From NCBI RefSeq assembly GCF_036014215.1, contig NZ_CP107921.1, positions 3,964,001-4,028,000 of the forward strand: a stretch of 64,000 bases of DNA, given 5' to 3'. The notes beneath the pieces were generated by a model that saw only the letters and a list, made by a program, of their open reading frames with translations, had not been told where the DNA came from and made no database searches. This stretch comes from Streptomyces sp. NBC_00440. GTDB taxonomy: Bacteria; Actinomycetota; Actinomycetes; Streptomycetales; Streptomycetaceae. Below, piece by piece: positions 7,062-35,349 of the stretch; within the stretch, counting starts at the first letter, position 1; every line of letters starts with the position of its first letter. The position numbers and the translations under genes were made by a program.

Positions 7062-7101
7062 ACCGACGACACTCGCCAGCGGCGCTGTCACCCCTGTGTG
7101 G

Positions 7102-8799: not shown

Positions 8800-8802
8800 C
8801 GG

Positions 8803-9540
8803 CTACTCCCCGGGCTTGATCAGATATCCGGCCCCGCGCCGGGTGTGGATCATCGGCGTACGCCCCGCGTCGATCTTGCGCCGGAGGTACGAGATGTAGA
8901 GCTCGACGACGTTGGCCTGGCCGCCGAAGTCGTACGACCAGACCCGGTCCAGGATCTGCGCCTTGGAGAGCACCCGGCGCGGGTTGCGCATCAGGAAGCG
9001 CAGCAACTCGAACTCGGTCGCGGTCAGATGGATGTTGGTCCCGCCCCTGGTGACGTCGTGGCTGTCCTCGTCGAGGGTCAGGTCACCGACGGCGAGCACC
9101 GACTCGCTGCGCTGTGCGCCCGTACCTGACCTGCGGATCAGCCCGCGCAGTCTGGCCACGACCTCCTCCAGGCTGAAGGGCTTGGTCACATAGTCGTCGC
9201 CGCCCGCCGTCAGACCCGCGATCCGGTCCGCCACGGCGTCCTTGGCGGTCAGGAAGAGCACCGGCACATCGGGCAGCTCGCGGCGCATCCGGCCGAGCAC
9301 GGCGATACCGTCCATGTCGGGGAGCATCACATCGAGCACCACGGCATCGGGCCGGAACTCCCGCGCGGTCCGCACGGCTCCGGCCCCGTCACCGGCGCTG
9401 CGCACCTGCCAGCCCTCATAGCGCAGCGCCATGGAGAGCAGCTCCGCGAGCGAGGCCTCGTCGTCCACGACGAGAACGCGCACCGCGGTGCCGTCGGGCC
9501 TGCACATTTCGGTACGCCCCTGGGGCGAGGTCGTAGTCAT
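8803..9540 (-). CDS. OmpR/PhoB-family response regulator
   Basis: 245 residues. The receiver domain carries the acidic pair D26-D27, phospho-acceptor D70 (VVLDVMLPDMDG), T98 and K120 (VTKPFS). The C-terminal winged helix (LTATEFELLRFLMRNPRRVL, then VVELYISYLRRK) is of OmpR type. ATG 9540 is preceded by GGAGG at eight bases; the frame stays open upstream without a better site. It is the first gene of the RR-HK-GT2-GT39 group. A tandem TCTCAGG/TCACAGG repeat with 11-bp period upstream (9584-9601) looks like an OmpR-family binding site, suggesting autoregulation. Confidence 0.93.
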   Translation of the reverse strand: MTTTSPQGRTEMCRPDGTAVRVLVVDDEASLAELLSMALRYEGWQVRSAGDGAGAVRTAREFRPDAVVLDVMLPDMDGIAVLGRMRRELPDVPVLFLTAKDAVADRIAGLTAGGDDYVTKPFSLEEVVARLRGLIRRSGTGAQRSESVLAVGDLTLDEDSHDVTRGGTNIHLTATEFELLRFLMRNPRRVLSKAQILDRVWSYDFGGQANVVELYISYLRRKIDAGRTPMIHTRRGAGYLIKPGE

Positions 9541-9583
9541 GGGCCCAGCCTCCGAGCTACCTCTGAGAGACCCCTTTCCCCAA

Positions 9584-9601
9584 CCTGTGAAATTCCTGAG
9601 A
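9584..9601 (-). promoter_or_regulatory. OmpR-type direct repeat upstream of the response regulator
   Basis: On the minus strand TCTCAGG (9601-9595) and TCACAGG (9590-9584) repeat with an 11-bp period, about 45 bp before the regulator start. Direct repeats on one helical face are the usual layout for OmpR/PhoB-family sites. A further CTCTGAGAG lies at 9561-9569. Assignment to this regulator is inferred. Confidence 0.5.
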
Positions 9602-9848
9602 AACGCCCGCACCCGCAGACGGCACACCCCCGGACGAACGGCCCCACCACACACAGCCCTGTCCGGCGCTCCCCTCCTCCTTCGCTCCCCTCCTCCCTCA
9701 TCCCCTCATCCCCTCATCCCCTCCCCAGCCGGGGCCGCCCAACCACGGGCAGGGCTGTCCCTATCCCAGCCGGGGCCGCCCACTTCGGGCGGGGCTGCCC
9801 CAATACCGGCGCTGCCCGGCCCCCGAACTGCCCACCCTCCGGGGCTGT

Positions 9849-9902
9849 ACGTACGGTCACTCCCGGCCTGACGTACGGTCGCTCCGGCCCTCACGTACGG
9901 TC
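9849..9902 (+). repeat. Three ACGTACGGTC repeats with exact 22-bp period
   Basis: ACGTACGGTC occurs at 9849, 9871 and 9893. The last copy ends five bases before the ATG at 9908. Exact two-turn spacing just before a start codon without a ribosome site suggests operator copies, though duplication without function is possible. Confidence 0.7.
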
Positions 9903-9907
9903 ACCCC

Positions 9908-10441
9908 ATGCGGATCCTCACCCTGTCGGGCAGCCTGCGCGCCCGTTCCACCAACGGCGCCCTGCTGCATGCGGCCGGGTCCCTGGCCACGGCCGACGGG
10001 GCGGCCGTCACGACAGCCGACATCGGCGGGCTGCCCCACTTCAACCCGGACCTCGACGGCGAGGGCGCCGTGCCCCCGGCCCCGGTGGCGGCCCTGCGGA
10101 AGTCTGTGGCCGAGGCGGACGCGGTGCTGGTCGTGAGCCCCGAGTACGCGCACGGCGTGCCCGGCGTACTGAAGAACGCCCTGGACTGGCTGGTCAGCAG
10201 CGGCGAGTTCATCGACCGCAGAGTCGGCGTGATCACCGCGTCACCCAGCCCGACGGGCGGCGACTACGCCAACACCCAACTGCGCGAAACGCTGCGGATG
10301 ATGACCGGCACCGTGGTCGATGAGGCCTGCCTGATGGTCGGAACAGTCACCACCAGGCTCGACCGGGACACGGGCGAGATCACGGACCCGGAACTCACGA
10401 CACAGCTCAAGGCGGCGCTGAAGGCACTGACGACGCCCTGA
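9908..10441 (+). CDS. NAD(P)H-dependent FMN reductase family protein
   Basis: 177 residues of flavodoxin-like fold: N-terminal phosphate-binding loop LSGSLRARSTNGALL (about 6-20) and the family signature SPEYAHGVPGVLKNALDW. These enzymes reduce FMN, quinones or chromate with NAD(P)H. ATG 9908 directly follows the third copy of a 22-bp repeat and has no Shine-Dalgarno, so the mRNA may be leaderless. The gene stands alone; partner and physiological acceptor cannot be deduced. Confidence 0.88.
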   Translation: MRILTLSGSLRARSTNGALLHAAGSLATADGAAVTTADIGGLPHFNPDLDGEGAVPPAPVAALRKSVAEADAVLVVSPEYAHGVPGVLKNALDWLVSSGEFIDRRVGVITASPSPTGGDYANTQLRETLRMMTGTVVDEACLMVGTVTTRLDRDTGEITDPELTTQLKAALKALTTP

Positions 10442-10677
10442 CCAAGCGCCCCCGCCCCCACCTGCAACAGAACAACCCGAGCAGCAACGCCCCGACCGGA
10501 CCGCCCAGACCAGACCAGACCAGCCCAGCCCAGAATAACGGGCCAAATCACCGCAAACCACCACCTATCCCACCACCCACACCCCGCCCATCCCACTCTC
10601 GGCCACCTCATCGCACAACAACCACACGAGATCAGGCCACAGGCAGAGAGGGCCACACAAGGGGGTGGCACCCACCC

Positions 10678-11550
10678 TCAGAACAACCCAGGCTGCTCCA
10701 CCTCCGGTTCCGCCGGGGCCACCCGCACCGGCACGGTCACCCCCGCACCGGGCTCCGCGCCCGTCAGCCCCCAGCCGGCCATCAACCGCGTATCGAGGAC
10801 GATCACCGCACCGTCGTCCCCGGCGAGATGCAGGTCAGGCCCTGCGGCAGCCACCAGCCGCCCCGCGACGGCCCCGCCCGCCACGAGCTCGCTCACCACC
10901 CCCGCGGGGTCACCGAGTCCCGCCAGCCCGAACACCTCCCCGTGATCGGCCACTTCGCACACCAGCCGCTCCAGCGAATCCGGCCACCCGGCCAGCGCGA
11001 CGGCCCGTGCGTGCACCGCACGTACCTCGGCCGCCCGCTCCTCCCGTCCGGGCAGCCGGGCCCGCACCGCCCGCTTGTCCGCGTACGGAATCCGGTCCGG
11101 CACACCCAGCGCCGTACGCAACAGCTCCTCGGTCCGCCGGGCCGCCATCAACGGCCCCCGCCCCAGCCAGCTGAAAGCCACCGCCCCCTGCTCCCTCAGC
11201 CGCGCCGGACCGCGCTCCTCCGCCGTGATCCCCACCTTGACCATCCCGGCCCCGAACCAGGCGAGGTAGACGCGGTAGACCCGGGGATCGTCGGCGATCG
11301 TGTCGGCCGCCACCGAGTGCGCCCGGTCGAGCCGCGCGCACTCCCCGCAGCGCGCCTGCGTACCGCGCCCCGGCACCCGTGCCCGCACCGGGCAGGCATG
11401 ACCACGCGCCCCCACACACGTACGCTCCCCCGCCGCCTCGACCCGGAAGCCGACGTCGGTCCCGTACACCAGCGGACTGGCCCGCGCCCGCCCTTCCCAC
11501 GCGAGCCGGGGGCCCTCGTCCCCCCACCGCAGCCCACCGGAACGCCACAT
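10678..11550 (-). CDS. DUF2797 domain protein
   Basis: 290 residues. Four cysteines in two groups (C..ARGHAC, then C-x-x-C in ARCGECARL) in the N-terminal half suggest a metal site. The central segment VYLAWFGAGMVKVGI followed by RLREQGAVAF is characteristic of DUF2797 and recalls a GIY-YIG nuclease strand-loop-helix, though a catalytic set is not confirmed. Function unknown in the family. It lies alone, with 236 bp of C-rich, gene-free sequence downstream (10442-10677). Confidence 0.8.
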   Translation of the reverse strand: MWRSGGLRWGDEGPRLAWEGRARASPLVYGTDVGFRVEAAGERTCVGARGHACPVRARVPGRGTQARCGECARLDRAHSVAADTIADDPRVYRVYLAWFGAGMVKVGITAEERGPARLREQGAVAFSWLGRGPLMAARRTEELLRTALGVPDRIPYADKRAVRARLPGREERAAEVRAVHARAVALAGWPDSLERLVCEVADHGEVFGLAGLGDPAGVVSELVAGGAVAGRLVAAAGPDLHLAGDDGAVIVLDTRLMAGWGLTGAEPGAGVTVPVRVAPAEPEVEQPGLF

Positions 11551-21392: not shown

Positions 21393-23042
<1,650 letters not shown>

Positions 23043-23083
23043 CGGATTACCTCCCGCTGGTGGCTGTCCGGCGATTGTGGAGC

Positions 23084-23099
23084 CATACCGTGCGGTATG
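23084..23099. promoter_or_regulatory. CATACC-N4-GGTATG operator of acyl-CoA synthetase
   Basis: Perfect 7-bp arms CATACCG and CGGTATG around TG, with an extra GGTATG half-site about 12 bp further upstream (23110-23115). The same 16-bp pattern precedes the truncated paralogue at 34684-34701. No gene for the cognate regulator is identified in the window. Confidence 0.65.
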
Positions 23100-23257
23100 T
23101 CTACTGGCCGGTATGCAGCGCGGCGGGCGCCCACGGGTCCGGTTCCCACCTGGGGTGAAACTCGAACGTCACGTTCTCGGCCCCGGGCCCGTTGCGGATG
23201 AGCGCGATACGCCGTAGCAATTTGCGGTAGACGCAGGGGCGATCCAGTCGACACCCC

Positions 23258-23612
23258 GCCGACGCCGTCGCCGCCCTCTCGGTGACCGGCTGCTCGTCCG
23301 ACGACAAGAAGGACGACGCCAAACTGGCAGCGAGCAGCGCCCCCGCGGCTGACACCGGGGATCCCGCCGAAGCCGACCGGCGCCGACCGTGACGCCTACC
23401 TCAAGGTGGTCAAGGCCGTTGATCCTGCGCTCGTCACGGACGAGGACAAGGCCATCGGCGCCGGCCGCAACCAGTGCTCTTCCCTCAACGGTGGCGGGAA
23501 GGCCCCCGACCACTTCGCGGCCGAGCGGTTCAGGAATGACGCGCACCCCCTCACGGGCGCCCAGGGCAAAGCCCTGAACGCCGCGCTCCGCAAGACGCTC
23601 TGCCCGAAGTGA
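23258..23612 (+). pseudogene. Broken DUF732-like lipoprotein gene
   Basis: One frame gives the lipobox-like SVTGCSSDDKKDDAKLAASS and stops at 23389-23391. The next frame resumes with TGADRDAYLKVVKAVDPALV, then GRNQCSSLNGGGK and ALRKTLCPK, ending at 23612. The second part matches the C-terminus of small secreted DUF732-type proteins (two Cys). So the gene has one frameshift near 23375 and lacks a proper signal-peptide start. It marks degraded DNA at the left edge of the accessory region. Confidence 0.65.
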
Positions 23613-23677
23613 CATTGCCTGCCGTTATGGATCTGTGATCCAATCAGGGCGACCCCGGCGTGCCCGAAAATAGCTGC

Positions 23678-24499
23678 TCAGCCAAACCGTTGCACTTCGG
23701 TGGCAACGGTTTGGCAACTGCGAACGAAGTCCCGCGCGGCCTCCGCTGTAACTGACTCCGGCCTGTGTGCTGCCTTATTGCGCAACAACCTCAACCGATC
23801 AAACACGTTAAGGGTTTCCGGCTGCAAGCCCAACGCCCTGAGACGCCTCGACAGGTCTTGTGAGTCATAGACACCCGATCTGCTTTGCGGCGCCTGACCG
23901 TGATCCTCAAGCGCGTTCACGCAAAACGCTTGCAGGATCGTCCAGGCAGTAATCACTGAACCCACAGGAGAAGCCTCAACCGTTCCCATCGCCTCGTGGA
24001 AGATCCCCCACCTACGCACACGCGGAACCTCAAGGACTGACTGCGGTTCACCCACGGTGGGCCCCTGCATAGGCTCGTCAGACGACAGCGGTGGAGATCG
24101 CATCCACGGCGCCGGTGACGGGTGCTCAGTCGGCGACTGGGACGGCAAAGGCCCGGATTGCGGCTGCTGGGGCGGCGGCTGCGGGGATTGCTGCTGCCGG
24201 GGTGGCGGAGGCTGTGGATACTCGTACCCGTATGGCGTCGGCCCGGGTCCCGGCGGCGTGAATAGCGGCGGCTCGGACATCAGATCATCAGGTGTGTTGG
24301 GCACGGCAAGGCTGTCGGCCTCATCCCGAACATCTCGGGCTTCAGCAGCAAACTCGAATGTGCCGGCTGGAGTCTCTAGCCGAATGAGGCGCTCGAACGC
24401 TCCCCTTATCTGTGTGCGGAGAACCCAGACCGCGCACAACGTGACCAGTGGCCACGCAAGGGATTCAAAGTACTTGAGCACTAGCTCTGCTATCTCCAC
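23678..24499 (-). CDS. Membrane-anchored HEPN-like (DUF4145-type) protein
   Basis: 273 residues if GTG 24499 is used; the frame is open to 24604 and the start is uncertain because no convincing ribosome site is present. A single TM lies at about 14-28, followed by RLIRLETPAGTFEF, a long Pro/Gln-rich linker (PQPPPPRQQQSPQPPPQQPQ), then a helical C-terminal domain. The helix pair RRLRALGLQPETLNVFDRLR / LLRNKAAHRPESVTAEA carries R240-N-K-A-A-H245, the Rx4H signature of HEPN domains, many of which are RNases in defence systems. It opens the accessory region and diverges from the decayed terminase genes. Intact; function not proven. Confidence 0.65.
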   Translation of the reverse strand: MEIAELVLKYFESLAWPLVTLCAVWVLRTQIRGAFERLIRLETPAGTFEFAAEARDVRDEADSLAVPNTPDDLMSEPPLFTPPGPGPTPYGYEYPQPPPPRQQQSPQPPPQQPQSGPLPSQSPTEHPSPAPWMRSPPLSSDEPMQGPTVGEPQSVLEVPRVRRWGIFHEAMGTVEASPVGSVITAWTILQAFCVNALEDHGQAPQSRSGVYDSQDLSRRLRALGLQPETLNVFDRLRLLRNKAAHRPESVTAEAARDFVRSCQTVATEVQRFG

Positions 24500-24629
24500 T
24501 GCTCCATCTTTGTGTGATTCCCTCGGCGTACCTCGCTGAACGCACGAATCGTGACGTAGCCGAGACAGGCACGGCCCGGTAGGTGCGGCACCCAGCAAAC
24601 CCACTGATCACCGCGGCGAGGAGGTGAAT

Positions 24630-25172
24630 GTGACCAAGCCTCGACCCATCACCGACAAAGACCGGCGAGCCGTCCGCCGCCACGCCGCGGGCATGACCCG
24701 AAACGAGATCGCCCGCAAGCTGAAACGGTCCCCATCGACCGTTTCGAAGATCGCGAAGGACCAGGGCCTCACGTTCGACCGCGGCCCCGAAGTCATCGCC
24801 GCGACCGAGGCACGCCGCATCGACCTCGCCGCCCGCCGCGTAGACCTCGCCCACCGGCAACACGAGGACGCCGAGAAGCTCCGGGAGTAGCTGTTCGCGC
24901 CGTGCAAGATCGGCGCGTTCGGTGGCAAAGACAACGTGTGGACGCAGCAAGACCTCCCACAGCCCACCTTCGGCGATCAGCGCGCCATTGTCGCCGAGGT
25001 CGGACAGTCCATCAACAACAGTGTGAAGCTCGCCCCGCTTGAAGGCGGAGCGGACGCCGACGGCGTTGCAAGCATGCTCAGCAAATTGGGCACCGCATTG
25101 GGCGCAGCGTTCGCCGACGAGCCCGACGACGGGGCGCCGGGGGGGGAGGGGGGGGAGGGGACGCGTGCTTGA
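24630..25172 (+). pseudogene. Phage HTH protein (small-terminase-like), nonsense mutation
   Basis: GTG 24630 follows GAGGAGG by five bases. The N-terminus PITDKDRRAVRRHAAGMTRN plus EIARKLKRSPSTVSKIAKDQ is a sigma-70-like/homeodomain-type HTH. A TAG at 24888-24890 interrupts it after EDAEKLRE, and the same frame continues (LFAPCKIGAFGGKDNVW, then PTFGDQRAIVAEVGQSIN) to a natural TGA at 25172. In related actinophage proteins this position reads LREQLW, so a CAG-to-TAG change explains the stop. Its end overlaps the large-terminase start by eight bases, as expected for a terminase pair. Confidence 0.8.
25133..25160 (+). other. G-rich tract with quadruplex potential
   Basis: Runs of 4, 8, 8 and 4 guanines separated by CGCC, A and A just before the large-terminase start. 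Coding in the HTH pseudogene (PGGEGGEG). Homopolymers of this length are slippage-prone. Confidence 0.7.
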
Positions 25173-26439
25173 CCTCGACGCACTACCCCTCTCCCGCAAG
25201 CAGCTGCGATCGATCGGCCGCGCGACCGCCCGTATCAATCTGTGGCATGGCGCTGTGCGGTCCGGCAAGACCATCGCGAGCCTGCTCGCGTTCGTGATCG
25301 CGGTCGCCGCCGCCGGGCCGTCCGGCTTGATCATCATTTGTGGCCGCAGCTTGCAGACCATCGAGCGGAACGTGTTCGAACCGCTCATGGATCAGGCGTT
25401 GTTCGGGCCTCTCGCTCAGCACATCCACCACACCAGAGGCGCGACCACGGCCACCATCCTTGGCCGTACCGTGCACCTGATCGGCGCGGCCGACACCCGC
25501 GCAAAGGGCCGCCTACGTGGCCTCACCGCGCAACTCGCTTACGTCGACGAGGCAACACTCCTGCCTGAAGGCTTCTGGACTAAGCTACTGGCCCGGCTAT
25601 CCGTCACGGGCGCCCGCCTCTACACCACTACGAACCCCGACAGCCCGCGCCACTGGCTGAGGCCGCCTGCCTCGACCGCGCCGACAAACTCGACTTGCGG
25701 GCCTGGCATTTCAAGCTCGCCGATAACCCGTCCCTCGACCCCGACTACGTGGCCAGCCTCACCGCCGAGTACGTCGGACTGTGGCGAAAGCGCATGATCG
25801 CTGGTGCGTGGTGCGTCGCCGAGGGCGCCATCTACGCATGTGGAACGAGACCACGCACGTGGTCGCCGAGCTCCCCGCGATGCGCCGCCACTGGGTCGGC
25901 ATCGACTACGGCACCTCGAACCCCATCGCGGCGTTGCTCCTGGGCCACGGTGTCGACGACCGGCTGTACGTGTGCGCCGAGTGGCGGCACGAGGGCCGTG
26001 CCACGCACCGCCAGATGACCGACGCCCGGTACTCCGCGGCTATACGCGGGTGGCTGTCCGAGCTCGGCTAGCCCCCGAGTGGGCGTCTATTGACCCGTCG
26101 GCCGCCTCGTTCTCCGTACAGATGTGGCAGGCCGGGCACGACGGATTGGCCAAAGCGACCAACGATGTCGGCGACGGCATCCGATCCGTATCGTCCGCGC
26201 TCGCCGCCGGCCGCCTGCTCGTCCACGAGTCATGCGAAGGGCTACTCTCCGAGATGCCCAGCTACGCATGGGACCGCAAGGCATCCGACGCGGGCCAGGA
26301 CAGGCCGCTCAAGGTCGACTACCACAGCGTCGACGCGCTGCGCTACGTCGTGCACTCGACCGCGCATGAGTGGCGCCACCTGCTGACCCTCCCCGCTATA
26401 CCGGAGAGGCCTCGCGCACCTTCCGGATCTCGTCTCTAA
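25165..26439 (+). pseudogene. Phage terminase large subunit, multiple frameshifts
   Basis: GTG 25165. The ATPase part keeps Walker A (WHGAVRSGKT), Walker B (LAYVDEATLL) and motif III (LYTTTNPDSP). The frame is lost near 25665 and resumes as LDLRAWHFKLADNPSLDPDY, shifts again near 25840 (to WVGIDYGTSNPIAALLLG, the nuclease strand with its Asp) and again near 26070 (to EWASIDPSAASF and VDYHSVDALRYVVHS). All catalytic landmarks remain in order, so decay is recent but the protein cannot be made whole. The 3' end overlaps the opposite-strand gene at 26396. Confidence 0.87.
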
Positions 26440-26947
26440 ACTTCGACAACCTGTCGGACACTGCCTCTTGCAACCGGTCGTGGTTCCGTTCCCACCGACG
26501 AGGCACGACCACACGCTTCTCGCGAACAATGTTCGACGAGCAACATAAGGCGACCAGATTCGCGCTCACTGAGCAGGCGGCGTAATAGGCGCTCTCTGGA
26601 CCGACCATCTGCACCGCATACTTGTATGGCCGCAGCTTTGATAGGGAGTCCCCATCAATTTCGAGATTGGCTCGGAGCATGTCAAGGTCGCGCGGGCTCC
26701 AGATCTTTCGGACGAGCTCCTCGGATAGTACCGCAGTGTTCTGCAGTTGAGCCGCGAGAGCCTCCGCGGAATTCAAAAAAGATGCGTAGGCAGAGAGTCT
26801 GTCCTCTCTCAAGGCACGTTCATCCGCGACGCGCGCATGAGTTGCCGCATCGTAGCGAACGCCCCCGTGTACAACCCCAGCTTGCACAACCATGCCCGCG
26901 ACGTGCCCACCGCTCAACTCATTGTTCACTTCGCCCAGTTCACCCAT
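26396..26947 (-). CDS. Unknown cargo protein with VVQAG/VHGGV motif
   Basis: 183 residues, intact, opposite to the phage genes and inserted between terminase and portal. The N-terminus carries GGHVAGMVVQAGVVHGGVRY (13-32). This pattern, G-x-V-V-Q-A-G then H-G-G-V, heads many Streptomyces conflict-type proteins and contains V-Q-A-G, similar to RHIM-type amyloid cores (an inference). The rest is helical (ADERALREDRLSAYASFLNS; later RRWERNHDRLQEAVSDRLSK) with no enzyme motif recognised. ATG 26947 has no ribosome site; a TATCTT lies nine bases upstream, suggesting a leaderless transcript. Base composition is less GC-rich than the chromosome. Confidence 0.65.
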   Translation of the reverse strand: MGELGEVNNELSGGHVAGMVVQAGVVHGGVRYDAATHARVADERALREDRLSAYASFLNSAEALAAQLQNTAVLSEELVRKIWSPRDLDMLRANLEIDGDSLSKLRPYKYAVQMVGPESAYYAACSVSANLVALCCSSNIVREKRVVVPRRWERNHDRLQEAVSDRLSKFRDEIRKVREASPV

Positions 26948-26994
26948 GCGTCGGAAGATACGCGACGGGTCAAAAGATCACTATTGGAGGTCAC

Positions 26995-28489
26995 ATGACA
27001 CTGCCTGAGAACGGCGCAGCGTGGCCGCCTCCGAGCATGGCTCACGCGTACCAGGAGATGCGCCGCGATGACGCGTGGTACGGAGGCAGCGAACGCCGTC
27101 TCCGCGCCATGTACGACCACGGCCAGGACCAGCAGCCACAAAGCGCACCGAGGCTTTTGGGGCCGCCAGGGGCCCGACCAGCACGCCGGGAAGCGGGAGC
27201 GGCGCCTACACGTGCCCCTGCCCAGCGATATCGCCTCGACGTCCGCCGATCTGCTGTTCGCGGACATGCCGACCATCACCGTCGAAGGCACGGGCACGCA
27301 GGCCCGCCTTGACGAGCTGATCGACGAGGGCCGCGCCCATCAGCTGTTCCTGTATGCAGCCGAGCAGGCATCGGCGCTCTCCGGTGTGTACCTCCGCGCA
27401 ACGTGGGACAGGGAACTCGCGTCGCGCCCCCTGCCGACCGTCGTGCAGGCGGGCGCCGCCGTTCCAGAGTTCTCCATAGGCATGCTCCGCGCCGTCAGCT
27501 TCTGGCGTGACTTGTCCGGCGGCACGGACACGACGACGTATCGGCACATTGAGCGGCACGAGCCCGGCCGCATCATGCACGCCCTGTACGAGGGCGCCCC
27601 CGACAACATCGGCCGCCCGGTCCCGCTGACCGAGCACCCGGAGACAGCCGGCCTCGCCGACAGCTTCGACCAGGGGGGCGACGGACAGACGATCAGCACA
27701 GGTATCCCGCTGCTCACCGCGTCGTACGTCCCGAACATGCTCCCGAACCGGCTGCACCGCGGATCGCCCATGGGGCGCAGCGACTATGCCGCCCCGCTCT
27801 ACGACATGTTCGAGTCGCTCGATGACACGTGGACGTCGTGGATGCGAGATCTACGTTTCGCCCGCGCGAGGCTGATCGTCCCAGACGGGTACCTCAGGAA
27901 TGAGGGTCCCGGCAATGGCGCCAGCTTCGATGACGACCGCGAGGTATACAGCGCTCTGAAGATGCCCCCGAACGAGGGCGCCGATATCACCCTCTCGCAG
28001 TTCGACATCCGGGTAGAGGAGCACCAGCGCACGCACGAGAGCATCATTTGGCAGGCCGCACAGTCCGCCGGGTACTCCGCGCAGTCGTTCGGCCTCGACG
28101 GTGGCGGGCAGCCCATCACCACAACCGAATCGGACTCCCGCGATCAACGGAGCATGGTCACCAGGAAGAAGAAGACGGGCTACTGGCGCCACAGTGTCGC
28201 CGACATGGCGCATGTGCTGTTGCTGCTCGACGTCGCACAGTTCGGTTCCCGGATCATCCCGGAGCGGCCGGCCGTCGACTTCGGTGATGGCGTCGCCGAG
28301 TCACTCCAGTCGACCGCAACGTCATTGGAACTACTCAGCCGCGCAACCGCCGTGAGTACCGCGACCAAGGTCAAGATCCTGAACCCCAGTTGGGACGACA
28401 CCGCGGTTCAGGCCGAGGCCGCCGCGATCCTCGCCGAGACCGGCGCGGCGGCCCCCGACCCTATTGGCACATTCCCCCTGAACCAGTGA
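26995..28489 (+). pseudogene. Phage portal protein, N-terminal frameshift
   Basis: ATG 26995 behind TTGGAGG begins MTLPENGAAWPPP and SMAHAYQEMRRDDAWYGGSE. Near 27120-27150 the frame shifts to the one reading FWGRQGPDQHAGKRERRLHV then PLPSDIASTSADLLFADMP and stays open to 28489. Later segments (MFESLDDTWTSWMRDLRFAR, SQFDIRVEEHQRTHESIIWQ, TTTESDSRDQRSMVTRKKK) are typical of SPP1-type portal proteins of actinophages. Apart from this single shift it is nearly complete (about 490 codons). Confidence 0.82.
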
Positions 28490-28520
28490 GGATCTACGAG
28501 AGAGGCCCTTTCCTGGAGCC

Positions 28521-29063
28521 TCAAATGCGTTCTAGGCCAGTATATTCTAGAGCCCTCTGCGCTGCACGCGAAAGCGCGAGAACCGAATCCATTAGATCAA
28601 TAGACGCGTCATCCAATTGACTCACAAGGCCATTAATGCGCCTCTCTTCCATTTCCGCCTCACCCGCAGGTGCATTGATAAATACACGAACACTCACCAA
28701 ATGACCGAACAGAGCGTATGCCCATTTCCTCAATTCGGCTGCTTCAGTCAACACCTCGGCAGGACCGAGAAGAGTGATCTCTAGCCAACCCTCATCGATG
28801 GGCTCTTTGAGATCAAGGGCATTCGTGAGCGCTTCACTAGAGCTCCAAATAACGTCCCCCGCCCCGTATTCGGCCATGTCCGTCGCGGCGGAAATCATTT
28901 GTCGAAATGCCACACGTCGAGGCTCGCGAACTTCCTTTTGGTAGTCCGCTCGCACCGTCGTGAGGGCTGCCTGTCGTTGCGCCCGAGTGGTCAATGCGGC
29001 GGTGCCGAGAGTTGCTATTGCGCCAACAAGGGCACCACCGATCGCCGCGATGCCAGCATCCAT
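28521..29063 (-). CDS. Membrane-anchored helical protein of unknown function
   Basis: 180 residues from ATG 29063. One N-terminal TM (AAIGGALVGAIATLGTAALT, about 5-24) precedes basic and helical cytoplasmic sequence (RAQRQAALTTVRADYQKEVR, later AAELRKWAYALFGHLVSVRV). No catalytic motif found; one-TM proteins of this architecture are common and uncharacterised in Streptomyces. TAACAT eight to thirteen bases upstream and the lack of a ribosome site suggest leaderless transcription. It is intact, less GC-rich and inserted antisense between the broken portal and minor-capsid genes. Start at 29126 is open but improbable. Confidence 0.6.
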   Translation of the reverse strand: MDAGIAAIGGALVGAIATLGTAALTTRAQRQAALTTVRADYQKEVREPRRVAFRQMISAATDMAEYGAGDVIWSSSEALTNALDLKEPIDEGWLEITLLGPAEVLTEAAELRKWAYALFGHLVSVRVFINAPAGEAEMEERRINGLVSQLDDASIDLMDSVLALSRAAQRALEYTGLERI

Positions 29064-29179
29064 GCGGCGGATGTTATCAACCGATCGAAAGGGCCAACTT
29101 CGCCATGAAGCTGGTGCTTTGAGCACTCGGGGCGTCGGTAAAACGAAGGTGGTGGCGAACTGTGCCGATACATCCGGGC

Positions 29180-30250
29180 ATGGTCGAAGACCTCGCCGCG
29201 GGCACCCGCGACCTGTACGCGGAGGCCGAAGAACGGCTGTTGGGCATCATTGCCCGGCAGCTGGCGGACTGATTCGATTCGCCACAGTGGGCCGAGCGCA
29301 AGCTCGCCGCCGTGCAGGCGCTCAGGCGCTCCGCTCAGACCGTGGTCGGCTTCCTTGAACAGGCGGTGGCCGCCGAGGTGTTCGACGTGACCGCGCAGGC
29401 GTACAACGTCGGGCACCGGGCCGGGGTCGCCGAGCTCGGCGCGCTCGACGACGACGGCCGCCGCCTGGTCGACGACGTCACCCCGAACGCTCAGGCGGTC
29501 GATCGCCTCGCAGAGCAGACCGTGGACCGCGTCACCGATACGCACCGGGCGATCCTGCGGGCCGTCGTGGACAAGGTTCCGCGAGATCGTCGCCCACGTC
29601 GCCGCTACGCCGTTCCTCGGTACTGGCAGCCGCCGGCAAGCCACACAGGACGCGATGCAGCGGTTTGCCGATCAGGGCATTACGTCGTTCGTCGACAAGT
29701 CGGGCCGTCGGTGGAAACACTTCATACGCGGAGATGGCCGTACGTACCGCAGTGGGCCGCGCAGCGACAGAAGGCCACATGCGGGCGCCGGAAAGCGCCG
29801 GGGGGATCTCGTCACGGCGTCCAACGCTCCGCGTGAGTGCCCGCTCTGCCGCCCCTGGGAAGGCAAGGTTCTGACGATCAGCGGGCCGGACGGCGCCCAC
29901 GCGGTCGAGGTCGAGCACGCGATCGAGGACGGCCGTACGGTCCGGGTGAACGTTGCCGGATCCCTCGACGCCGCCCGCCGCGCTGGGCTGCAACACCCCA
30001 ACTGCCGCCACTCCGTGAGCGCCTACACGCCGGGAATCACGCGCACGGACAACGCCACCTCGGATCCCGCCGGGGACGAGGCCGGGCAGCGACAGCGCGC
30101 CATTGAGCGCAACATCCGGAACACAAGAACCGGGCCGCCGCCGCTGTCGACCCCGTCGCGAAGCGCGCCGCGAACGCCAAGGTCCGCCAGTGGCAGAGCG
30201 CCATGCGCGAGCACCTGACCGAACACCCCGACCTGCGCCGTCTGCGCGCC
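29180..30250 (+). pseudogene. Phage minor capsid/head morphogenesis protein, heavily decayed
   Basis: ATG 29180 reads VEDLAAGTRDLYAEAEERLL then LGIIARQLAD and meets an in-frame TGA near 29270. The same frame resumes (FDSPQWAERKLAAVQALRRS) and runs until about 29575. After that, pieces alternate between frames: TPFLGTGSRRQATQDAMQRF, SYAEMAVRTAVGRAATEGHM, then ASNAPRECPLCRPWEGKVL and VRQWQSAMREHLTEHPDLRR. The CPLCRPWEGK block is typical of phage minor capsid protein 2. At least one stop and four shifts; not functional. Confidence 0.8.
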
Positions 30251-30251
30251 C

Positions 30252-30948
30252 GTGAGCAGCCCGGGGCATCCAAACCTTCCCGCGGCCCGCACCGTGCCGG
30301 ACACAGCCCATATGGAGGCTGCCCGCGTACGGTCCGGGGACGCGGCGACCATGCGCGAGATGACCGATGAGCAGCTCGGCACGGCCATGGGCGCGCCGTC
30401 GCTCGACGCGCGGGACCAGGCGCGCATTGCGGACGAGTTCGACCGACGGTATCCGCCGGCGCCGCTTCCCGCCCCCGCGGCTACGGGCGATGCTGTCGGC
30501 GACCTGCTCGCCGACCGGGCCGCCATCGATGACGCGCTCGACCCGCTCCCCATTCCGGAGGAGTGGGGAGCCCTCGCCTACGACGAATCGTTCGGCGAGG
30601 AGCTCGCGGCCGCGGTGAAGGGCCGCCGAGAAGCGCGGCACGGAGGCAGCCCCGACGGTCACCCGGGCGCATGCGCGCGCCCTGTACGACGAACACGTAT
30701 ATGCCCAGTACCTGGCTGCCGAGGACGACTGTCGCGGCTACCTGCTCAGCAGGAAAGCACAGGCCGAAGGCGTCGACCCTGCAACGCTGTTCAGCGGTCC
30801 GGCGCACATCGCGTATGCCCGAGCGTCGGACGAGCTCAAGGAGTGGTGGCGCGTCCATGGGCGGATGACTCAGGCCGAGTTCATCGAGCAGGCGACCGGC
30901 GTACGCTCCGAAGCCGCAGCGCGGGCCCGTAAGGCGGAGTCCGAGTAG
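30252..30948 (+). pseudogene. Continuation of phage minor capsid region, frameshifted
   Basis: First frame: RVRSGDAATMREMTDEQLGT, then LDARDQARIADEFDRRYPP, losing sense near 30625. Second frame: VTRAHARALYDEHVYAQYLA, AEDDCRGYLLSRKAQAEGVD, DELKEWWRVHGRMTQAEFIE, ending TAG 30948. It may be the C-terminal half of the minor capsid protein or a separate small phage protein. AAGAGGTG just after it serves the next mini-gene. Confidence 0.6.
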
Positions 30949-30968
30949 CAGAACAAGAGGTGATGAGC

Positions 30969-31127
30969 ATGGGAACGCGCGCAGAGATCGTGCAGGCTGT
31001 GACGGATGGTGCAGCGGCCGGACGCCGCGGCGATCGTCCCACTACCTGCCCGTACTTGCGTGACTCTCTGCTCCGCACGGCATGGATTCGCGGATACGCC
31101 CGCACCCGACCGGCGGCCGGAGCCTGA
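30969..31127 (+). CDS. Rmf/CrpP-fold mini-protein
   Basis: 52 residues. MGTRAEIVQAVTDGAAAGRR followed by CPYLRDSLLRTAWIRGYART resembles the Rmf/CrpP fold (ribosome-modulation-factor type) seen in small actinobacterial and phage proteins: an N-terminal helix, then a C-P-Y turn and an AWIRGY helix. AAGAGGTG ends seven bases before ATG 30969, so this is preferred over ATG 30963. It is intact inside the dead head module. Rmf hibernates ribosomes in Escherichia coli; the role here is unknown. Confidence 0.65.
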   Translation: MGTRAEIVQAVTDGAAAGRRGDRPTTCPYLRDSLLRTAWIRGYARTRPAAGA

Positions 31128-31237
31128 GGTTCCCTCCATCACGTATGACGCTGGTCACAATTTAACTAGTGGTGTCCGCTTATGAACTGTGAGTGAATGT
31201 TCATGCCAACGACATTCATCGACACCACGGGGATTTC

Positions 31238-31786
31238 ATGAACAAGGTGCGTACTGCCATCACGGCAGCCGTCACGGCTATTTCGCTTTCAACAATGGCG
31301 GCGCCTACGTGGGCGGCGGAAGCCTCTGGCGGCGACACGGGCTCTCCGGTCATCAACAACGTCACTGAAAACACACAGGTCAAGGACGTTCAAAAGGGTA
31401 TGGCTCCGGCCACCACTTGGCCGATCAGTAACCATACGTTCAATCCCGGACACCCCTCCTTCACGAACGACGCGTCCTACGGCAAGTTCACAGGGCAGGT
31501 CCATTACGCGTCGCCTCAGACCATGGCTTGGAGCCTGAGGCTGAAGCCAGCCGTTACGGCTGCTGCCACTGGTTCCATGTCCGAGGTTGCATCGGTGACC
31601 AAGAACGGAAAAAAGTACAACTACCACGACAGCCACCCAGCAGTAGGGCCGTCTTACATACTCCACTCTTCAATTAAGACGGTTACGGGAGGGCCTTACG
31701 TGCTCACGATTCGAGAATCGTTCCCCATCAAGGGCGGCACCCGTACCATCACCACCACCTTCACTTTCACGATCACGTTCACCTGA
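31238..31786 (+). CDS. Secreted protein of unknown function with beta-rich C-terminus
   Basis: 182 residues. Signal peptide at about 1-28 (AITAAVTAISLSTMAAPTWA). The mature protein is Thr/Ser/Asn-rich (SPVINNVTENTQVKDVQK; TNDASYGKFTGQVHY) and ends in the alternating strand TRTITTTFTFTITFT. No known domain recognised. Codon use is much less GC-biased than the chromosome, pointing to recent acquisition. Only a weak GGGG precedes ATG 31238; the frame opens 45 bp earlier at 31193. The next gene encodes a small cytoplasmic protein, so a toxin/immunity-like pair is conceivable but unproven. Confidence 0.6.
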   Translation: MNKVRTAITAAVTAISLSTMAAPTWAAEASGGDTGSPVINNVTENTQVKDVQKGMAPATTWPISNHTFNPGHPSFTNDASYGKFTGQVHYASPQTMAWSLRLKPAVTAAATGSMSEVASVTKNGKKYNYHDSHPAVGPSYILHSSIKTVTGGPYVLTIRESFPIKGGTRTITTTFTFTITFT

Positions 31787-31868
31787 TCAACAGCCGTTAA
31801 GGACCGGGGGACGTAGAATTTGGTATACTTCTTCACCCCTCCCCCTCGCAGCAGAAGGAGGAAGTTGC

Positions 31869-32246
31869 ATGTCGCGAGTACAGCGACTCACTGAAATCGT
31901 GTTGGCCGACCTCCGAGTGCAACGCCCTGAACTTAATCCGTGCGTAACCTACACCCCATCAGACTTCATTCCGGGAGCGGTTGATATTCTCCTCAGCGAC
32001 GAAGGAGGATTCGGGTGCGGATTTTTGATCAATCCAGAAAATAGCGACCAGGAAATTACCCTGGAACTCGCTTACAGAATTCCCACCGCGTACGTAGAGC
32101 TCTTCCAAGTGGGAATACCAATAGTTCCCGGAAGTCAACGACCAGCGGTTGCGGTTATCGAAGGTGATGTAGTCATGTGGCGCGACCCAAAGCGCCCATC
32201 GAACTGGTCATGTCCGGTGGGTCGACTTGATTCCTCGGAGAACTGA
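31869..32246 (+). CDS. Small cytoplasmic protein of unknown function
   Basis: 125 residues, no signal peptide or TM. AGAAGGAGG lies just before ATG 31869, and TATACT at 31824-31829 is a good -10 box for its own promoter. The sequence (RLTEIVLADLRVQRPELNPC, GAVDILLSDEGGFGCGFLIN, ENSDQEITLELAYRIPTAYV) predicts alternating strands and helices; no family recognised. GC content is low for the genome, like its neighbour at 31238. A terminator follows at 32378-32400. Confidence 0.6.
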   Translation: MSRVQRLTEIVLADLRVQRPELNPCVTYTPSDFIPGAVDILLSDEGGFGCGFLINPENSDQEITLELAYRIPTAYVELFQVGIPIVPGSQRPAVAVIEGDVVMWRDPKRPSNWSCPVGRLDSSEN

Positions 32247-32377
32247 GAGTTCCCGACACCTGATTTCTCGTGCTTGCTTAATTCGAGGAAGCGGAGCTGC
32301 CCCGGAACTCGCGGTAGTCGGCAGCCGACTGGCCAGGAGGACCGCACCGCGTAGCAAACGCATGACCAGCACCAATC

Positions 32378-32400
32378 GGGGCCCGCCAGGAGCGGGCCCC
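32378..32400 (+). terminator. Rho-independent terminator
   Basis: Perfect 9-bp arms GGGGCCCGC and GCGGGCCCC with a 5-base loop, followed by TTTTG. It ends the transcript of the two low-GC cargo genes before the scaffold pseudogene. Confidence 0.85.
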
Positions 32401-32460
32401 TTTTGCATGCCCGAACGGCCCGCCAGGCGCGGGCCCGTACTGCCCCAGGAGGGCACCCAC

Positions 32461-33137
32461 ATGAGCACCCCCGCAGCCCCCGCAGCTGGCCCCGGCGACA
32501 TCGCGTCGGCCACGACCGAGTCCAGCACCGGGCAGGACCCGACCGCCGCACCGGCCGTACCCGTGGGCGAGGACGTCAGCAGCCTGCCGCCGTGGGCACA
32601 GCAGCAGCTCACGAGCGCCCGCGCGGAGGCAGCGAAGTCCCGCACGATCGCCAAGGCCAACGCCGCGCAGGAAGCCGAGGCCGTGATCACGCAGCGGCTC
32701 GCCGAGGCCTTCGGCATCGCCCCGACCCCCGACGCCCCGCCGGACCCCGCCGCGCTCACTGCCCAGGTTGCCGAGCTCTCCGCGCAGCTGCGCACCGCCC
32801 AGGTTCAGAACGCCGCCCGGACCGCCGCGGCCGAGCAGCAGGCCCGCCCCGATCGGCTCCTGAACTCGGTGGCGTTCAACGCGAAGATCGCCGACCTCGA
32901 CCCCGCCGCAGCCGACTTCGGCGAGCAGCTCCAGGCTGCGATCACCGCCGAAGTCGCCACCGATCCCGAGCTGTACCGGACCGCCCCGGCCGGCCCCGCA
33001 CGCGCGGGCGCCGAGTTCAGCGGCCGCCGTCCGACGGCATCACCCCCGCTCAGTTCGGCGCCATGAACTACGCGGCCCGCGCCGCTCTGTTCCAGACCGA
33101 CCCCATCACCTACCGGCGACTTGCCAGTACCCAGTAA
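32461..33137 (+). pseudogene. Phage scaffold protein, C-terminal frameshift
   Basis: ATG 32461. The sequence is Ala/Pro-rich at first (SLPPWAQQQLTSARAEAAKS) followed by a long coiled helix (RTIAKANAAQEAEAVITQRL; ALTAQVAELSAQLRTAQVQN), typical of capsid scaffolds. Near 33030 the frame is lost; the adjacent frame reads SDGITPAQFGAMNYAARAAL and DPITYRRLASTQ to 33137, the natural C-terminus. One indel therefore breaks it. The capsid gene follows after 11 bp. Confidence 0.8.
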
Positions 33138-33148
33138 GGAGACCCACC

Positions 33149-33770
33149 GTGCCCAACACTGCCGCCGCCGATCTGTTCGTTCCCGAGGTATGGGGCGACA
33201 TGTCACAGGCCAAGTTCACCGGCACCGTCCTTGTGGGCGGCTCGGCCGCCGTCATGACCGATGACCAGCTGGTCGGTCAGCCGGGCAACTCCGTCAACTT
33301 CCCGAAGTGGAACGCACTCGGGGAGCTCGACGACCTGTCCGAGGGTGTCGCCATGGGCACTACGAAAATGTCGCAGACGAGCGACAAGGCCACCATCCGG
33401 GAGGCCGGTAAGGCGGTCGAGCTCACCGATACCGCGGTTCTGACCGCGCTCGGCAACGCCAACGACGAGGCACACCGACAGTTCGGGATCCTCGCCGCCC
33501 GCAAGGTGGACGCGGCCCTTATCGCGCAGGCGCAGGCCGACGAGACCGCACAGGGGGCGGCAACCCGTACACGTTCACCACCGCCGCGGGGAAGACCGCG
33601 TTCACGCGACCGACGTGGAATGACGCGATGGTCCCCGCCATCGCCCAGTTCGGCGACGAGTGGGACCCGGCCGAGTTCGGGTGTTCCTCAACTCGGCGCA
33701 GCTCGCCGACGCGTACGCCGACGAGCGGTTCATCGATGCCCCGGCCACCCACTGCGCTGGGCAAGCCCGC
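33149..33770 (+). pseudogene. Phage major capsid protein, frameshifted and truncated
   Basis: GTG 33149 behind AAGGAG. N-terminus ADLFVPEVWGDMSQAKFTGT, VNFPKWNALGELDDLSEGVA, then AVELTDTAVLTALGNANDEA matches HK97-like actinophage capsids. Frame loss near 33555 (NPYTFTTAAGKTAFTRPTWN in the next frame) and again near 33680 (VFLNSAQLADAYADERFIDA). Homology ends near 33750, leaving roughly two thirds of the protein; unrelated hairpin-rich DNA follows. This is the right end of recognisable phage sequence. Confidence 0.8.
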
Positions 33771-33975
33771 CAGCAGCGAAACGCCCCTGGGGCGGGATCT
33801 CTCCCGTGCCAGGGGCGTCTGCTGCCGCTCCCCGGTAGGAAAACACCGGGGGTGATGCACCCTCACTCTTCCACCTGATACCGACACCCCGGCGTTCGGG
33901 CGAATCGCGGTAGACGCATGGGGCCGGTGGATCTACTGGAACCTCTATCTGTTCACAGACCTGCACTGGAGTGAC

Positions 33976-34263
33976 ATGCGCTTCCGTACCGCCCTCGCCG
34001 CGCTCGGCCTTGCTGCCGCCGCCATCGCCGGAACCGCTGGTGCCGCCGCCGCCGCCGACAACCATGGCAGCAACGCGTGCACCTTCAGGCCCGCCACCGC
34101 CAACGGCCAGCTGGTCGACGTGCTCCCCGACGTCCCTGTCCTGTCAGCCCCGCAGAGCCAGCAGTGCACGACGACTTCCACCCAGGACAACACCGACGGG
34201 CCGCTCTCCCACATCCTCGGCTCTATTCCGGTCCTCCCCGGCAGCGGCGTAGACAACAGCTGA
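33976..34263 (+). CDS. Small secreted rodlin-like protein
   Basis: 95 residues. Signal peptide RTALAALGLAAAAIAGTAGA then AAAA. The mature 70 residues include VLSAPQSQQCTTTSTQDNTD and GPLSHILGSIPVLPG, resembling the C-terminal part of rodlins (surface rodlet-layer proteins of aerial hyphae) but shorter than the usual 130 residues. GGAG lies four to five bases before ATG 33976. Two cysteines. If correct it acts on the cell surface during sporulation; the shortness leaves doubt. Confidence 0.55.
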   Translation: MRFRTALAALGLAAAAIAGTAGAAAAADNHGSNACTFRPATANGQLVDVLPDVPVLSAPQSQQCTTTSTQDNTDGPLSHILGSIPVLPGSGVDNS

Positions 34264-34404
34264 TACCACTCGCACTCACCGGATGAATCTGTGGCACACG
34301 GTCCGGGAATGAGTAGGCACCCCAGCTGGAGTTCCTCTATCGGCGGGGGCGCCTCGTTCCTGCTGTTGCATCTCCGCAGGTCACGCGGCGAGTGTTCTAT
34401 CCAC

Positions 34405-34624
34405 GTTGTTCCACATGAGCGTTCCGACCCGCTGGTCGCCGTCGATCCCCAGCTCGTCGCGGAGCGCGTTGGCGAGCTGTACGGCACGTACGCCGGTCTC
34501 GGCGAAGGTGCGGCGCGTCGGCGTCGCCGGTCCAGGTGGTGATCCGGGAGGCCCCGTGCACCAGCGTTCCGTGGACGAGAATGCGGGTCACTGTCAGCGG
34601 TACGTCCTGCATCGTGCTCAGCAC
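34405..34624 (-). pseudogene. Truncated acyl-CoA synthetase fragment
   Basis: Starting at GTG/ATG 34624/34612 behind CCAGGAGGA, it reads STMQDVPLTVTRILVHGTLV and ITTWTGDAD, then shifts frame and continues TFAETGVRAVQLANALRDEL and VGTLMWNN, matching residues about 1-76 of the intact synthetase at 21393-23042. Everything downstream is missing. Many substitutions show it is a paralogue, not a recent copy. Its truncated end faces the accessory region, which apparently replaced the rest of the gene. Confidence 0.85.
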
Positions 34625-34812: not shown

Positions 34813-35349
34813 TCAGTGGGCGAGGGACAGCTCAGGGTCCTCGCGCAGTTTGCCGAGGGCGCGGGAGACCGCGCTCTTGACCGTACCGACCGAGACCCCG
34901 AGCACCTCGGCGGTCTGCTGCTCGCTGAGATCCTCGTAGTAGCGGAGCACCAGCATGGCCCGCTGCCGGTCGGGGAGCTTCATCACCGCGTGCCACATCG
35001 CATCGCGCAGCGCCTGCTGCTCAGCCGCATCGGGCGCGGGCTCGGTCTCCGGCTCGGGCAGGTCGTCGCAGACGAACTCGTCGACCTTGCGCTTGCGCCA
35101 CTGCGACGTACGGGTGTTCACCAGCGCCCGTCGGACATAACCGTCCAGGGCGCCATGGTCCTCGATCCGTTCCCACGCGACGTAGGTCTTGGTCAGCGCG
35201 GTCTGGAGCAGATCCTCGGCATCACTCGGATTGGCAGTCAGCGAACGGGCGGTACGCAGCAGAACGGGCCCCCGGGCCCGCATGTAGGTGGCGAACGACG
35301 AGTACGGCGTCGCCACCTTCGCTGCGTTGGTACAGACTGGCGTGGTCAT
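34813..35349 (-). CDS. SigE-family ECF RNA polymerase sigma factor
   Basis: 178 residues. Region 2 (PVLLRTARSLTANPSDAEDL, LLQTALTKTYVAWERI) and region 4 (LPDRQRAMLVLRYYEDLSEQ, AEVLGVSVGTVKSAVSRALG) are clear; the spacing and the GTVKSAVSRAL helix fit the actinobacterial SigE-family group. ATG 35349. No anti-sigma gene adjoins, and the neighbours (synthetase relic, DUF1906 protein) do not point to a regulon. The 222-bp upstream gap holds CCACCT/AGGTGG-type hairpins near 35440-35460. Confidence 0.9.
   Translation of the reverse strand: MTTPVCTNAAKVATPYSSFATYMRARGPVLLRTARSLTANPSDAEDLLQTALTKTYVAWERIEDHGALDGYVRRALVNTRTSQWRKRKVDEFVCDDLPEPETEPAPDAAEQQALRDAMWHAVMKLPDRQRAMLVLRYYEDLSEQQTAEVLGVSVGTVKSAVSRALGKLREDPELSLAH

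Follow-up and report, generated by a model that had tools for sequence, protein, structure and literature searches.

The window analysed here, a stretch of 64,000 nucleotides from Streptomyces sp. NBC_00440 (contig NZ_CP107921.1), contains the remnant of a prophage whose head genes are broken and whose five inserted cargo genes are intact. One of these, cargo 2, starts with a RHIM-like motif that also heads two NB-ARC/TPR receptors encoded in the same genome, and in phages the motif genes lie antisense in one slot, between the genes for the large terminase (TerL) and the portal. Three of five sister motif genes that stand beside dead TerL fragments in other genomes are under purifying selection. 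The explanation that we tentatively favour, at a little less than an even chance, is that these are phage-borne parts of NLR (NOD-like receptor)/amyloid immunity, some of which outlive their phage. On a broader and more doubtful version of this reading, phages would supply the amyloid branch of bacterial innate immunity with parts.

Foreign genes in a broken head module

The cargo consists of five open reading frames (ORFs) in four inserts, and none of these inserts is present in the prophage found at the same site in genome G019. The borders of three inserts (26389-26994, 28481-29161 and 31109-32377) were set by comparison with G019 and nine other modules, the homology breaking within bases to tens of bases, and those of the fourth (23671-24605) by comparison with G019 only. 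The GC fraction is 0.55-0.62 in the inserts versus 0.67-0.71 in the core genes. Precise intergenic insertion and deviating composition thus establish the following genes as cargo.

23678-24604, minus strand: cargo 1, antisense upstream of the small terminase gene (TerS), with a hydrophobic N-terminal stretch, weakly DUF4145-like (20.5 bits, below the cut-off of 23.1)
26396-26947, minus strand: cargo 2, 183 residues, convergent with TerL; predicted N-terminal RHIM-like (BASS3-type) motif and helical domain (profile A4, E 1.0e-8; homologue P0002)
26858-26923, minus strand: residues 9-30 of cargo 2, the RHIM-like motif (aligned in A5 with phage proteins and receptor-type long ORFs)
28521-29126, minus strand: cargo 3, predicted to have a hydrophobic N-terminal helix continued by a four-helix bundle; has a domain in common with cargo 2 (homologues, alignment, model)
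31193-31786 (likely start 31238), plus strand: cargo 4, small protein with a signal-peptide-like start, first of a conserved gene pair (homologous pairs in G163, G137 and G180)
31869-32246, plus strand: cargo 5, second gene of the pair with cargo 4 (homologous pairs; insert 31109-32377)

All five match uninterrupted homologues nearly end to end: cargo 1 (23678-24499) a protein of G115 (40%, residues 1-269 of 273), cargo 2 (26396-26947) protein P0002 (64%, 96% covered), cargo 3 (28521-29063) proteins P0004 and P0005 (59 and 50%, 98 and 99% covered), cargo 4 (31238-31786) a protein of G163 (42%, 1-181 of 182) and cargo 5 (31869-32246) one of G137 (45%, 1-122 of 125). Those relatives of the cargo that bear a name come from Streptomyces. 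In IMG/VR, no relatives of the window cargo were found with profiles A1 (cargo 2) and A2 or with 31238-31786 and 31869-32246, nor in a contig search with A1; these exact proteins are therefore rare. A promoter scan of the cargo gave no sigma70-type promoter, and terminator matches were at chance level. The pair of cargo 4 and cargo 5 is kept together in G163, G137 and G180, where the surrounding 1.5 kb is free of head genes, and the combination of a secreted-looking protein and a cytosolic partner suggests a putative effector with its protector. For this pair and for cargo 1 lysogenic conversion is proposed, and no mechanism beyond that.

The inserts interrupt a module which, by gene order and homology (TerS, TerL, portal, MuF, Rmf-like, scaffold, capsid), is of the SV1/Raleigh type; modules related to its head genes are present in many genomes and in the SV1/Raleigh phage group. 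Lesions were read from the alignment of intact relatives' proteins onto the window, and the broken head genes span 24642-33740.

24642-25133, plus strand: TerS, small terminase, one in-frame stop
25165-26394, plus strand: TerL, large terminase (Terminase_6N family), three frame changes and a stop
26995-28489, plus strand: portal, one frame change close to the start (phrog_533, E 1.2e-103)
29162-30960, plus strand: MuF minor capsid protein, at least two frame changes, with stops
30969-31127, plus strand: Rmf-like core phage gene, intact, not cargo (NF041887 Rmf_like_phage, 79.1 bits, cut-off 40)
32461-33137, plus strand: scaffold-like protein, at least one frame change close to the end (phrog_8952)
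33149-33740, plus strand: major capsid, two frame changes and about the last third lost, the alignment stopping at 33740 (phrog_544)

An earlier note on this DNA had listed a stop in the small terminase, three shifts in the large one, one in the portal, several lesions in the minor capsid gene, one shift in the scaffold and two plus a truncation in the capsid, and six ORFs as open; all of these lesions were recovered on the protein alignments, and the listed ORFs are open. Its count of 30969-31127 among the cargo is rejected on the Rmf-like match given above, and a small gene occupies the same position in all ten annotated phages compared, Raleigh's copy being a 66% match. Of the antisense inserts, the two that the note had placed between head genes stand (26396-26947 and 28521-29126), with the correction that 23678-24604, upstream of TerS, is likewise antisense.

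The ten phage records, of Streptomyces phages from the SV1, Raleigh, Picard and Austintatious groups, share with the window the order TerL-(small gene)-portal-MuF-small gene-scaffold-capsid (ToastyFinz being without the first small gene), and their portals are 59-74% identical. Unlike the window, nine of the ten are without a portal-MuF insert, and Alderaan has a 58-residue antisense ORF there; the RHIM-like motif was not found in the stretches compared. A wider sample was provided by 74 other head modules, reduced to 70 by merging four near-duplicates. The distance between portal and MuF, measurable in 69 of them, was 13-80 bp in 39 and at least 245 bp in 30. Between TerL and portal (66 measurable) it was at most 257 bp in 47, often with one small phage gene, and at least 306 bp in 19, some of these wide gaps holding merely a second small phage gene. 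The slot contents, named by eye, vary among modules and include small membrane proteins, HNH-like genes, methylase-like genes and others. Intergenic slots are thus a general feature of these modules and hold different genes in related prophages.

The RHIM-like motif in phages and host receptors

In cargo 2 (26396-26947), NELSGGHVAGMVVQAGVVHGG begins after eight residues, and the sole other protein that cargo 2 retrieved from a large database, P0002 (64%), has a similar start; the protein cluster of cargo 2 comprises three member sequences on four contigs. Judged by our own profiles and alignment, the stretch contains the core of a BASS3/RHIM-like motif; this RHIM-related bacterial amyloid signalling motif was reportedly described by Dyrka et al. 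in 2020. A profile of seven motif proteins built with the window excluded (A4) finds cargo 2 at E 1.0e-8 over positions 1-80; a further motif profile (A5) includes the window. Pfam RHIM gave no match, and no Pfam family matched 26396-26947 at E<=1.

A pattern scan over 1.48 million open-frame residues of the 70 modules returned four hits in three modules (G175, L060 twice and L071). All four lie antisense within the TerL-portal gap, a region accounting for about 1.8% of the bases; their place and strand are striking, their number alone is not. Viral contigs found by the motif-protein profile gave the same arrangement, TerL and portal flanking the gene in four of four, three of which were already among the collected modules. 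When A4 was run on 392 genomes of the genus, full-length hits (E < 1e-20) were obtained in 11, and TerL or a TerL fragment lay beside the gene in 10 (the exception being G074). In six of the 11 (G274, G075, G228, G129, G124 and G028) there are TerL fragments only and no portal gene, save a 24-residue portal match in G129; G124 and G028 were examined over just 1.5 kb per side.

The same profile also matches an N-terminal motif on many ORFs of 700-1000 residues. Nine were listed and eight scanned, of which five lie above the Pfam NB-ARC cut-off and one below it, one gives a weak AAA match and one nothing. In the window's own genome (G000, 8.68 Mb), A5 has three matches at E < 0.001, namely cargo 2 and two long ORFs, both of them NB-ARC/TPR proteins above the NB-ARC cut-off.

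G000:C1:1684133 downwards, and 1695569-1698083 (receptor, 1695569-1697641, and effector-like neighbour): two NB-ARC/TPR receptors with the RHIM-like motif, their motifs about 13 kb apart

An ORF of 141 residues lies just upstream of one receptor; its N-terminal end contains a hydrophobic stretch and its C-terminal end the motif. The protein has 57% identity to one of the G129 island described below and 50% to one in G074. According to the accessible part of PMC7889193, the motif in the BASS families is N-terminal on NLRs and C-terminal on a small helical domain, BELL; by analogy of gene layout, the 141-residue protein may be called BELL-like. A host receptor/effector pair of NLR-BELL layout is thus located elsewhere in the genome (G000:C1:1695569-1698083), and no receptor gene was found among the neighbours of cargo 2, where this two-gene layout is absent. 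The likeness to BASS3, as far as the available parts of PMC7889193, PMC8086366 and PMC7885112 describe it, lies in the motif core, its N-terminal place on NB-ARC receptors and C-terminal place on a neighbouring small effector-like ORF, and the occurrence in actinobacteria. The difference is that here the motif is N-terminal on small phage-borne proteins, in a fixed antisense slot of the head module, with no adjacent receptor gene.

Cargo 2 and cargo 3 have a common domain, as indicated by bridging hits: proteins in G180, G181 and G102 match the cargo 2 profile (A1) as well as the cargo 3 profile (A6), and a joint alignment (A7) gives the two families the common residues R...Y..F and VxLxGP. 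The G180 protein occupies the same antisense TerL-portal slot as cargo 2, a hydrophobic helix taking the place of the motif, and G123 has an ORF, convergent with TerL, that is similar to residues 1-61 of the cargo 3 family. The structural model of cargo 3 (mean predicted local distance difference test, pLDDT, 86.3) consists of a long helix at the N-terminus, continuous with a four-helix bundle; its fold matches are generic only.

It might be supposed that the window holds nothing but unrelated accessory genes (morons), the pair 31238-32246 being a secreted protein with its partner, the antisense genes small membrane or cytosolic proteins, and the motif being without amyloid function here. The very different genes in the slots of other modules, HNH-like and methylase-like ones included, and the occurrence of pairs like 31238-32246 away from head genes are in line with this. 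However, clear matches to the motif are few, three in the whole own genome, and it is confined in phages to one slot and orientation and heads NB-ARC receptors, so that we consider such a reading quite improbable.

The explanation by phage-borne immune parts would run as follows. A temperate phage of the SV1/Raleigh type, whose head module had earlier acquired foreign genes in fixed intergenic slots, would have entered the chromosome at the 5' end of an acyl-CoA synthetase gene, after which all but the head module would have been lost and the rest would have decayed. The motif of cargo 2 would be the RHIM-like motif used by NLR receptors for signalling to a small effector. Upon detection of an infecting phage by a host NLR, the receptor motif would nucleate an amyloid, and cargo 2, perhaps with a membrane-anchored cargo 3 built on the same helical domain, would join the assembly and cause membrane damage or growth arrest. 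The lysogen would thereby acquire abortive infection against other phages, and the host could retain the gene after the death of the phage. Bacteria may then be recycling virus-borne immune parts. A broader version, in which phages carry swappable small proteins plugging into host RHIM-like NLR amyloid signalling from one antisense slot after TerL, the domain being fronted by either the motif or a membrane anchor, and hosts domesticate some of them as mobile mini-islands whose main other phage traces are TerL 3' ends and an integrase remnant, is conceivable but doubtful.

Constraint on cargo genes beside dead phage genes

With a core of 6444 bp, cargo of 2844 bp and 9 to 12 lesions, the chance that all lesions fall in the core and none in the cargo under even decay is 0.037 to 0.012. 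The intactness of the window cargo is thus modestly beyond chance, and this intactness (P about 0.01-0.04) is what speaks for selection on the window's own genes. Since this chance is not tiny, the cargo might be intact simply because it is short or was inserted late, the head module being the larger target, all the more as open frames are also seen in the Rmf-like core gene and over most of the portal.

Evidence from beyond the window comes from islands of 3.4-5.3 kb in G129, G075, G228 and G274, which are 95.6-99.1% identical among these genomes and whose flanks do not align between genomes over the 16-17 kb compared. They contain 3' fragments of TerL and an integrase remnant (27.3 bits, cut-off 27.1). 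In G075 and G129 there are three TerL fragments; a convergent motif gene comes after two of them and the relic of a C-terminus of cargo-2 type after the other, and in between lies an effector-like ORF bearing a C-terminal motif. A tRNA as the target of the islands is not supported; one tRNA was present in one of the four regions, about 3 kb from that island.

The comparison of dN/dS (omega) between cargo and a head gene was made at these sister loci, in four other genomes, with codon changes counted against the majority codon among the island copies and gapped codons skipped, so that the values are approximate. Two TerL fragments pooled gave 34 non-synonymous and 16 synonymous changes (N34/S16) and look neutral, with an omega of 0.68 (p=0.19 versus neutral); TerL fragment 3 has stops in G075, G228 and G274. 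Motif genes A, B and C, which occur in every one of the four islands, gave an omega of 0.22, 0.13 and 0.10, respectively (pooled N14/S31, omega 0.15, p=8e-10), and differ from the TerL fragments with a Fisher p of 0.00045. This difference, and the six of 11 genomes with just a TerL fragment next to the motif gene, argue against the absence of special selection in the window; two of the five sister motif genes are little constrained, as that alternative would have it, and we regard it as rather unlikely.

The main mechanistic rival is a decoy, by which the phage's RHIM-like protein would cap or divert the amyloid of a host NLR and block cell death, like herpesvirus RHIM proteins. Viral RHIM decoys exist (VZV, varicella-zoster virus, ORF20; PMC7375649, in its accessible part), and the herpesvirus proteins are likewise virus-borne and of RHIM type; moreover, cargo 2 has its motif in the receptor-side (N-terminal) position and no evident membrane segment. 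Here, in contrast to the herpesvirus case, the partners are a phage and a bacterial host, and some sister genes are retained after phage death. A decoy would benefit a live phage, yet purifying selection acts on three of the five sister motif genes where the phage is gone and TerL fragments are their neighbours. Several sister motif genes also have two predicted membrane segments, and the islands hold an effector-like protein as well. Retention after the death of the phage thus speaks against a decoy, which we consider improbable.

The explanation by immune parts outliving their phage has its own difficulties, and the following results weigh against it. The motif pattern is weakly specific on its own, with 4 hits where shuffled frames give 1.1 on average. 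In the host receptor that matches best, the motif is a variant, with QAE in place of QAG; a direct hhalign comparison of A1 and A6, with few sequences, was not significant; and the model of cargo 2 is poor (pLDDT 53.6), with no evident membrane segment. Constraint was measured on sister loci and not on the window genes. Among the sisters, motif gene D (in G075 and G274 only) is intermediate, with N19/S14, an omega of 0.44 and a stop in G274, and motif gene E (in G075, G274 and part of G129) looks unconstrained, with N20/S8 and an omega of 0.88. Both weaken the contrast with TerL, and all five genes pooled give N53/S53, an omega of 0.34 and a Fisher p of 0.039. Furthermore, there is a frameshift in copy A of G129 and a stop in the copy of G073. 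The earlier note's proposal that selection keeps the cargo while the phage decays is therefore to be narrowed: from the split in omega among the five motif genes and from the broken copies, some are kept by selection after the phage has gone and others decay. With their fixed place in phages and, for some, selection beside phage wrecks, the motif genes point to phage conflict and make up small, testable gene sets; they are a concrete though partial case for the idea that cargo outlives its phage.

That the cargo would be of a defence or toxin kind, as the same note had supposed, agrees with an immune-type signalling motif on one gene and is not supported by PADLOC, which assigned no known defence family to the five cargo and five related proteins and gave two weak matches only (E 0.011 and 0.046); this again counts against the favoured explanation. 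Variable prophage cargo able to protect the lysogen is also found in defence hot spots and prophage defence genes (P2/P4, PMC9122126; BstA, PMC8585504; Tha, PMC11087260; each as far as accessible). Here, the slots lie within the head operon and are often antisense, and no known defence family is represented among the ten proteins tested. BASS/RHIM-like motifs and phage defence hot spots are thus already known. No report of phage-borne BASS motifs was found in the titles and abstract starts of the open literature, most subscription journals being outside that scope. The accessible portions of PMC8086366, PMC7885112, PMC7889193 and PMC12261475 contain no word starting with "phage", and that of PMC12881547 names phages in general terms only. 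The combination of a motif in a fixed antisense slot of phage head modules with TerL-fragment islands was likewise not met with in the open papers searched, a scope that leaves out most subscription papers.

One island locus, L129 of G075 (6380-10833, reversed coordinates), has tandem TerL 3' fragments (residues 325-414, 377-408 and 176-407) interleaved with antisense motif genes and the cargo-2-type relic. The array looks like repeated capture of terL-plus-cargo cassettes.

Integration site and further slot contents

The remnant measures 11.6 kb (about 22813-34403) and lies between an acyl-CoA synthetase gene (21393-23042, minus strand) and a sigma-factor gene (34813-35349, minus strand). In G259 and G023 these two genes directly adjoin each other with nothing in between. 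In G019 about 38 kb separates the same two host markers, with related head genes within; this is a longer prophage occupying the same site. The insertion site of the remnant is the acyl-CoA synthetase gene, the 5' end of which has been replaced by a phage version.

22813-23042, minus strand: phage-borne replacement 5' end of the acyl-CoA synthetase gene 21393-23042
34404-34624, minus strand: displaced native 5' end of the acyl-CoA synthetase gene, at the other edge of the remnant

Identity to G259 is 95.5% for the body of the gene, 77% for its first 230 bp (22813-23042) and 91% for the second 5'-end copy (34404-34624), from which it follows that the phage supplied its own 5' end, restored the gene and pushed the native end to the far side. 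A general assembly error as the cause of the frame shifts is judged unlikely because the long genes on either side are uninterrupted and the surrounding DNA aligns to G259 and G023 (83-94%).

Several slot contents of other modules recur. HNH-like genes on the sense strand are located in the TerL-portal gaps of L062, L084, L086, L087, G046 and G038; their presence in this same slot hints at its origin as an insertion site. The portal-MuF gaps of L084 (2474-3607), G046 (L144) and G038 (L147) hold a conserved antisense cargo of 338-377 residues with the stretch GGGPQGGI. Another recurrent antisense family, with the stretch A(A/T)PF(L/I)xA(I/V)ATHFG, occupies the portal-MuF gaps of at least four modules: G180 (L044, 8990-9622), L059, L069 and L074/L094. 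Its G180 copy matches NF041021 SCO5717_Nterm with 38.5 bits (cut-off 35). In G079 (L052), a portal-MuF insert of 6.4 kb with two large antisense ORFs (827 and 445 residues, recombinase-like as named by eye) splits the head operon. In the window itself, a further intact small ORF, absent from the earlier list, lies near the right edge of the remnant (33976-34263) and has a signal-peptide-like start.

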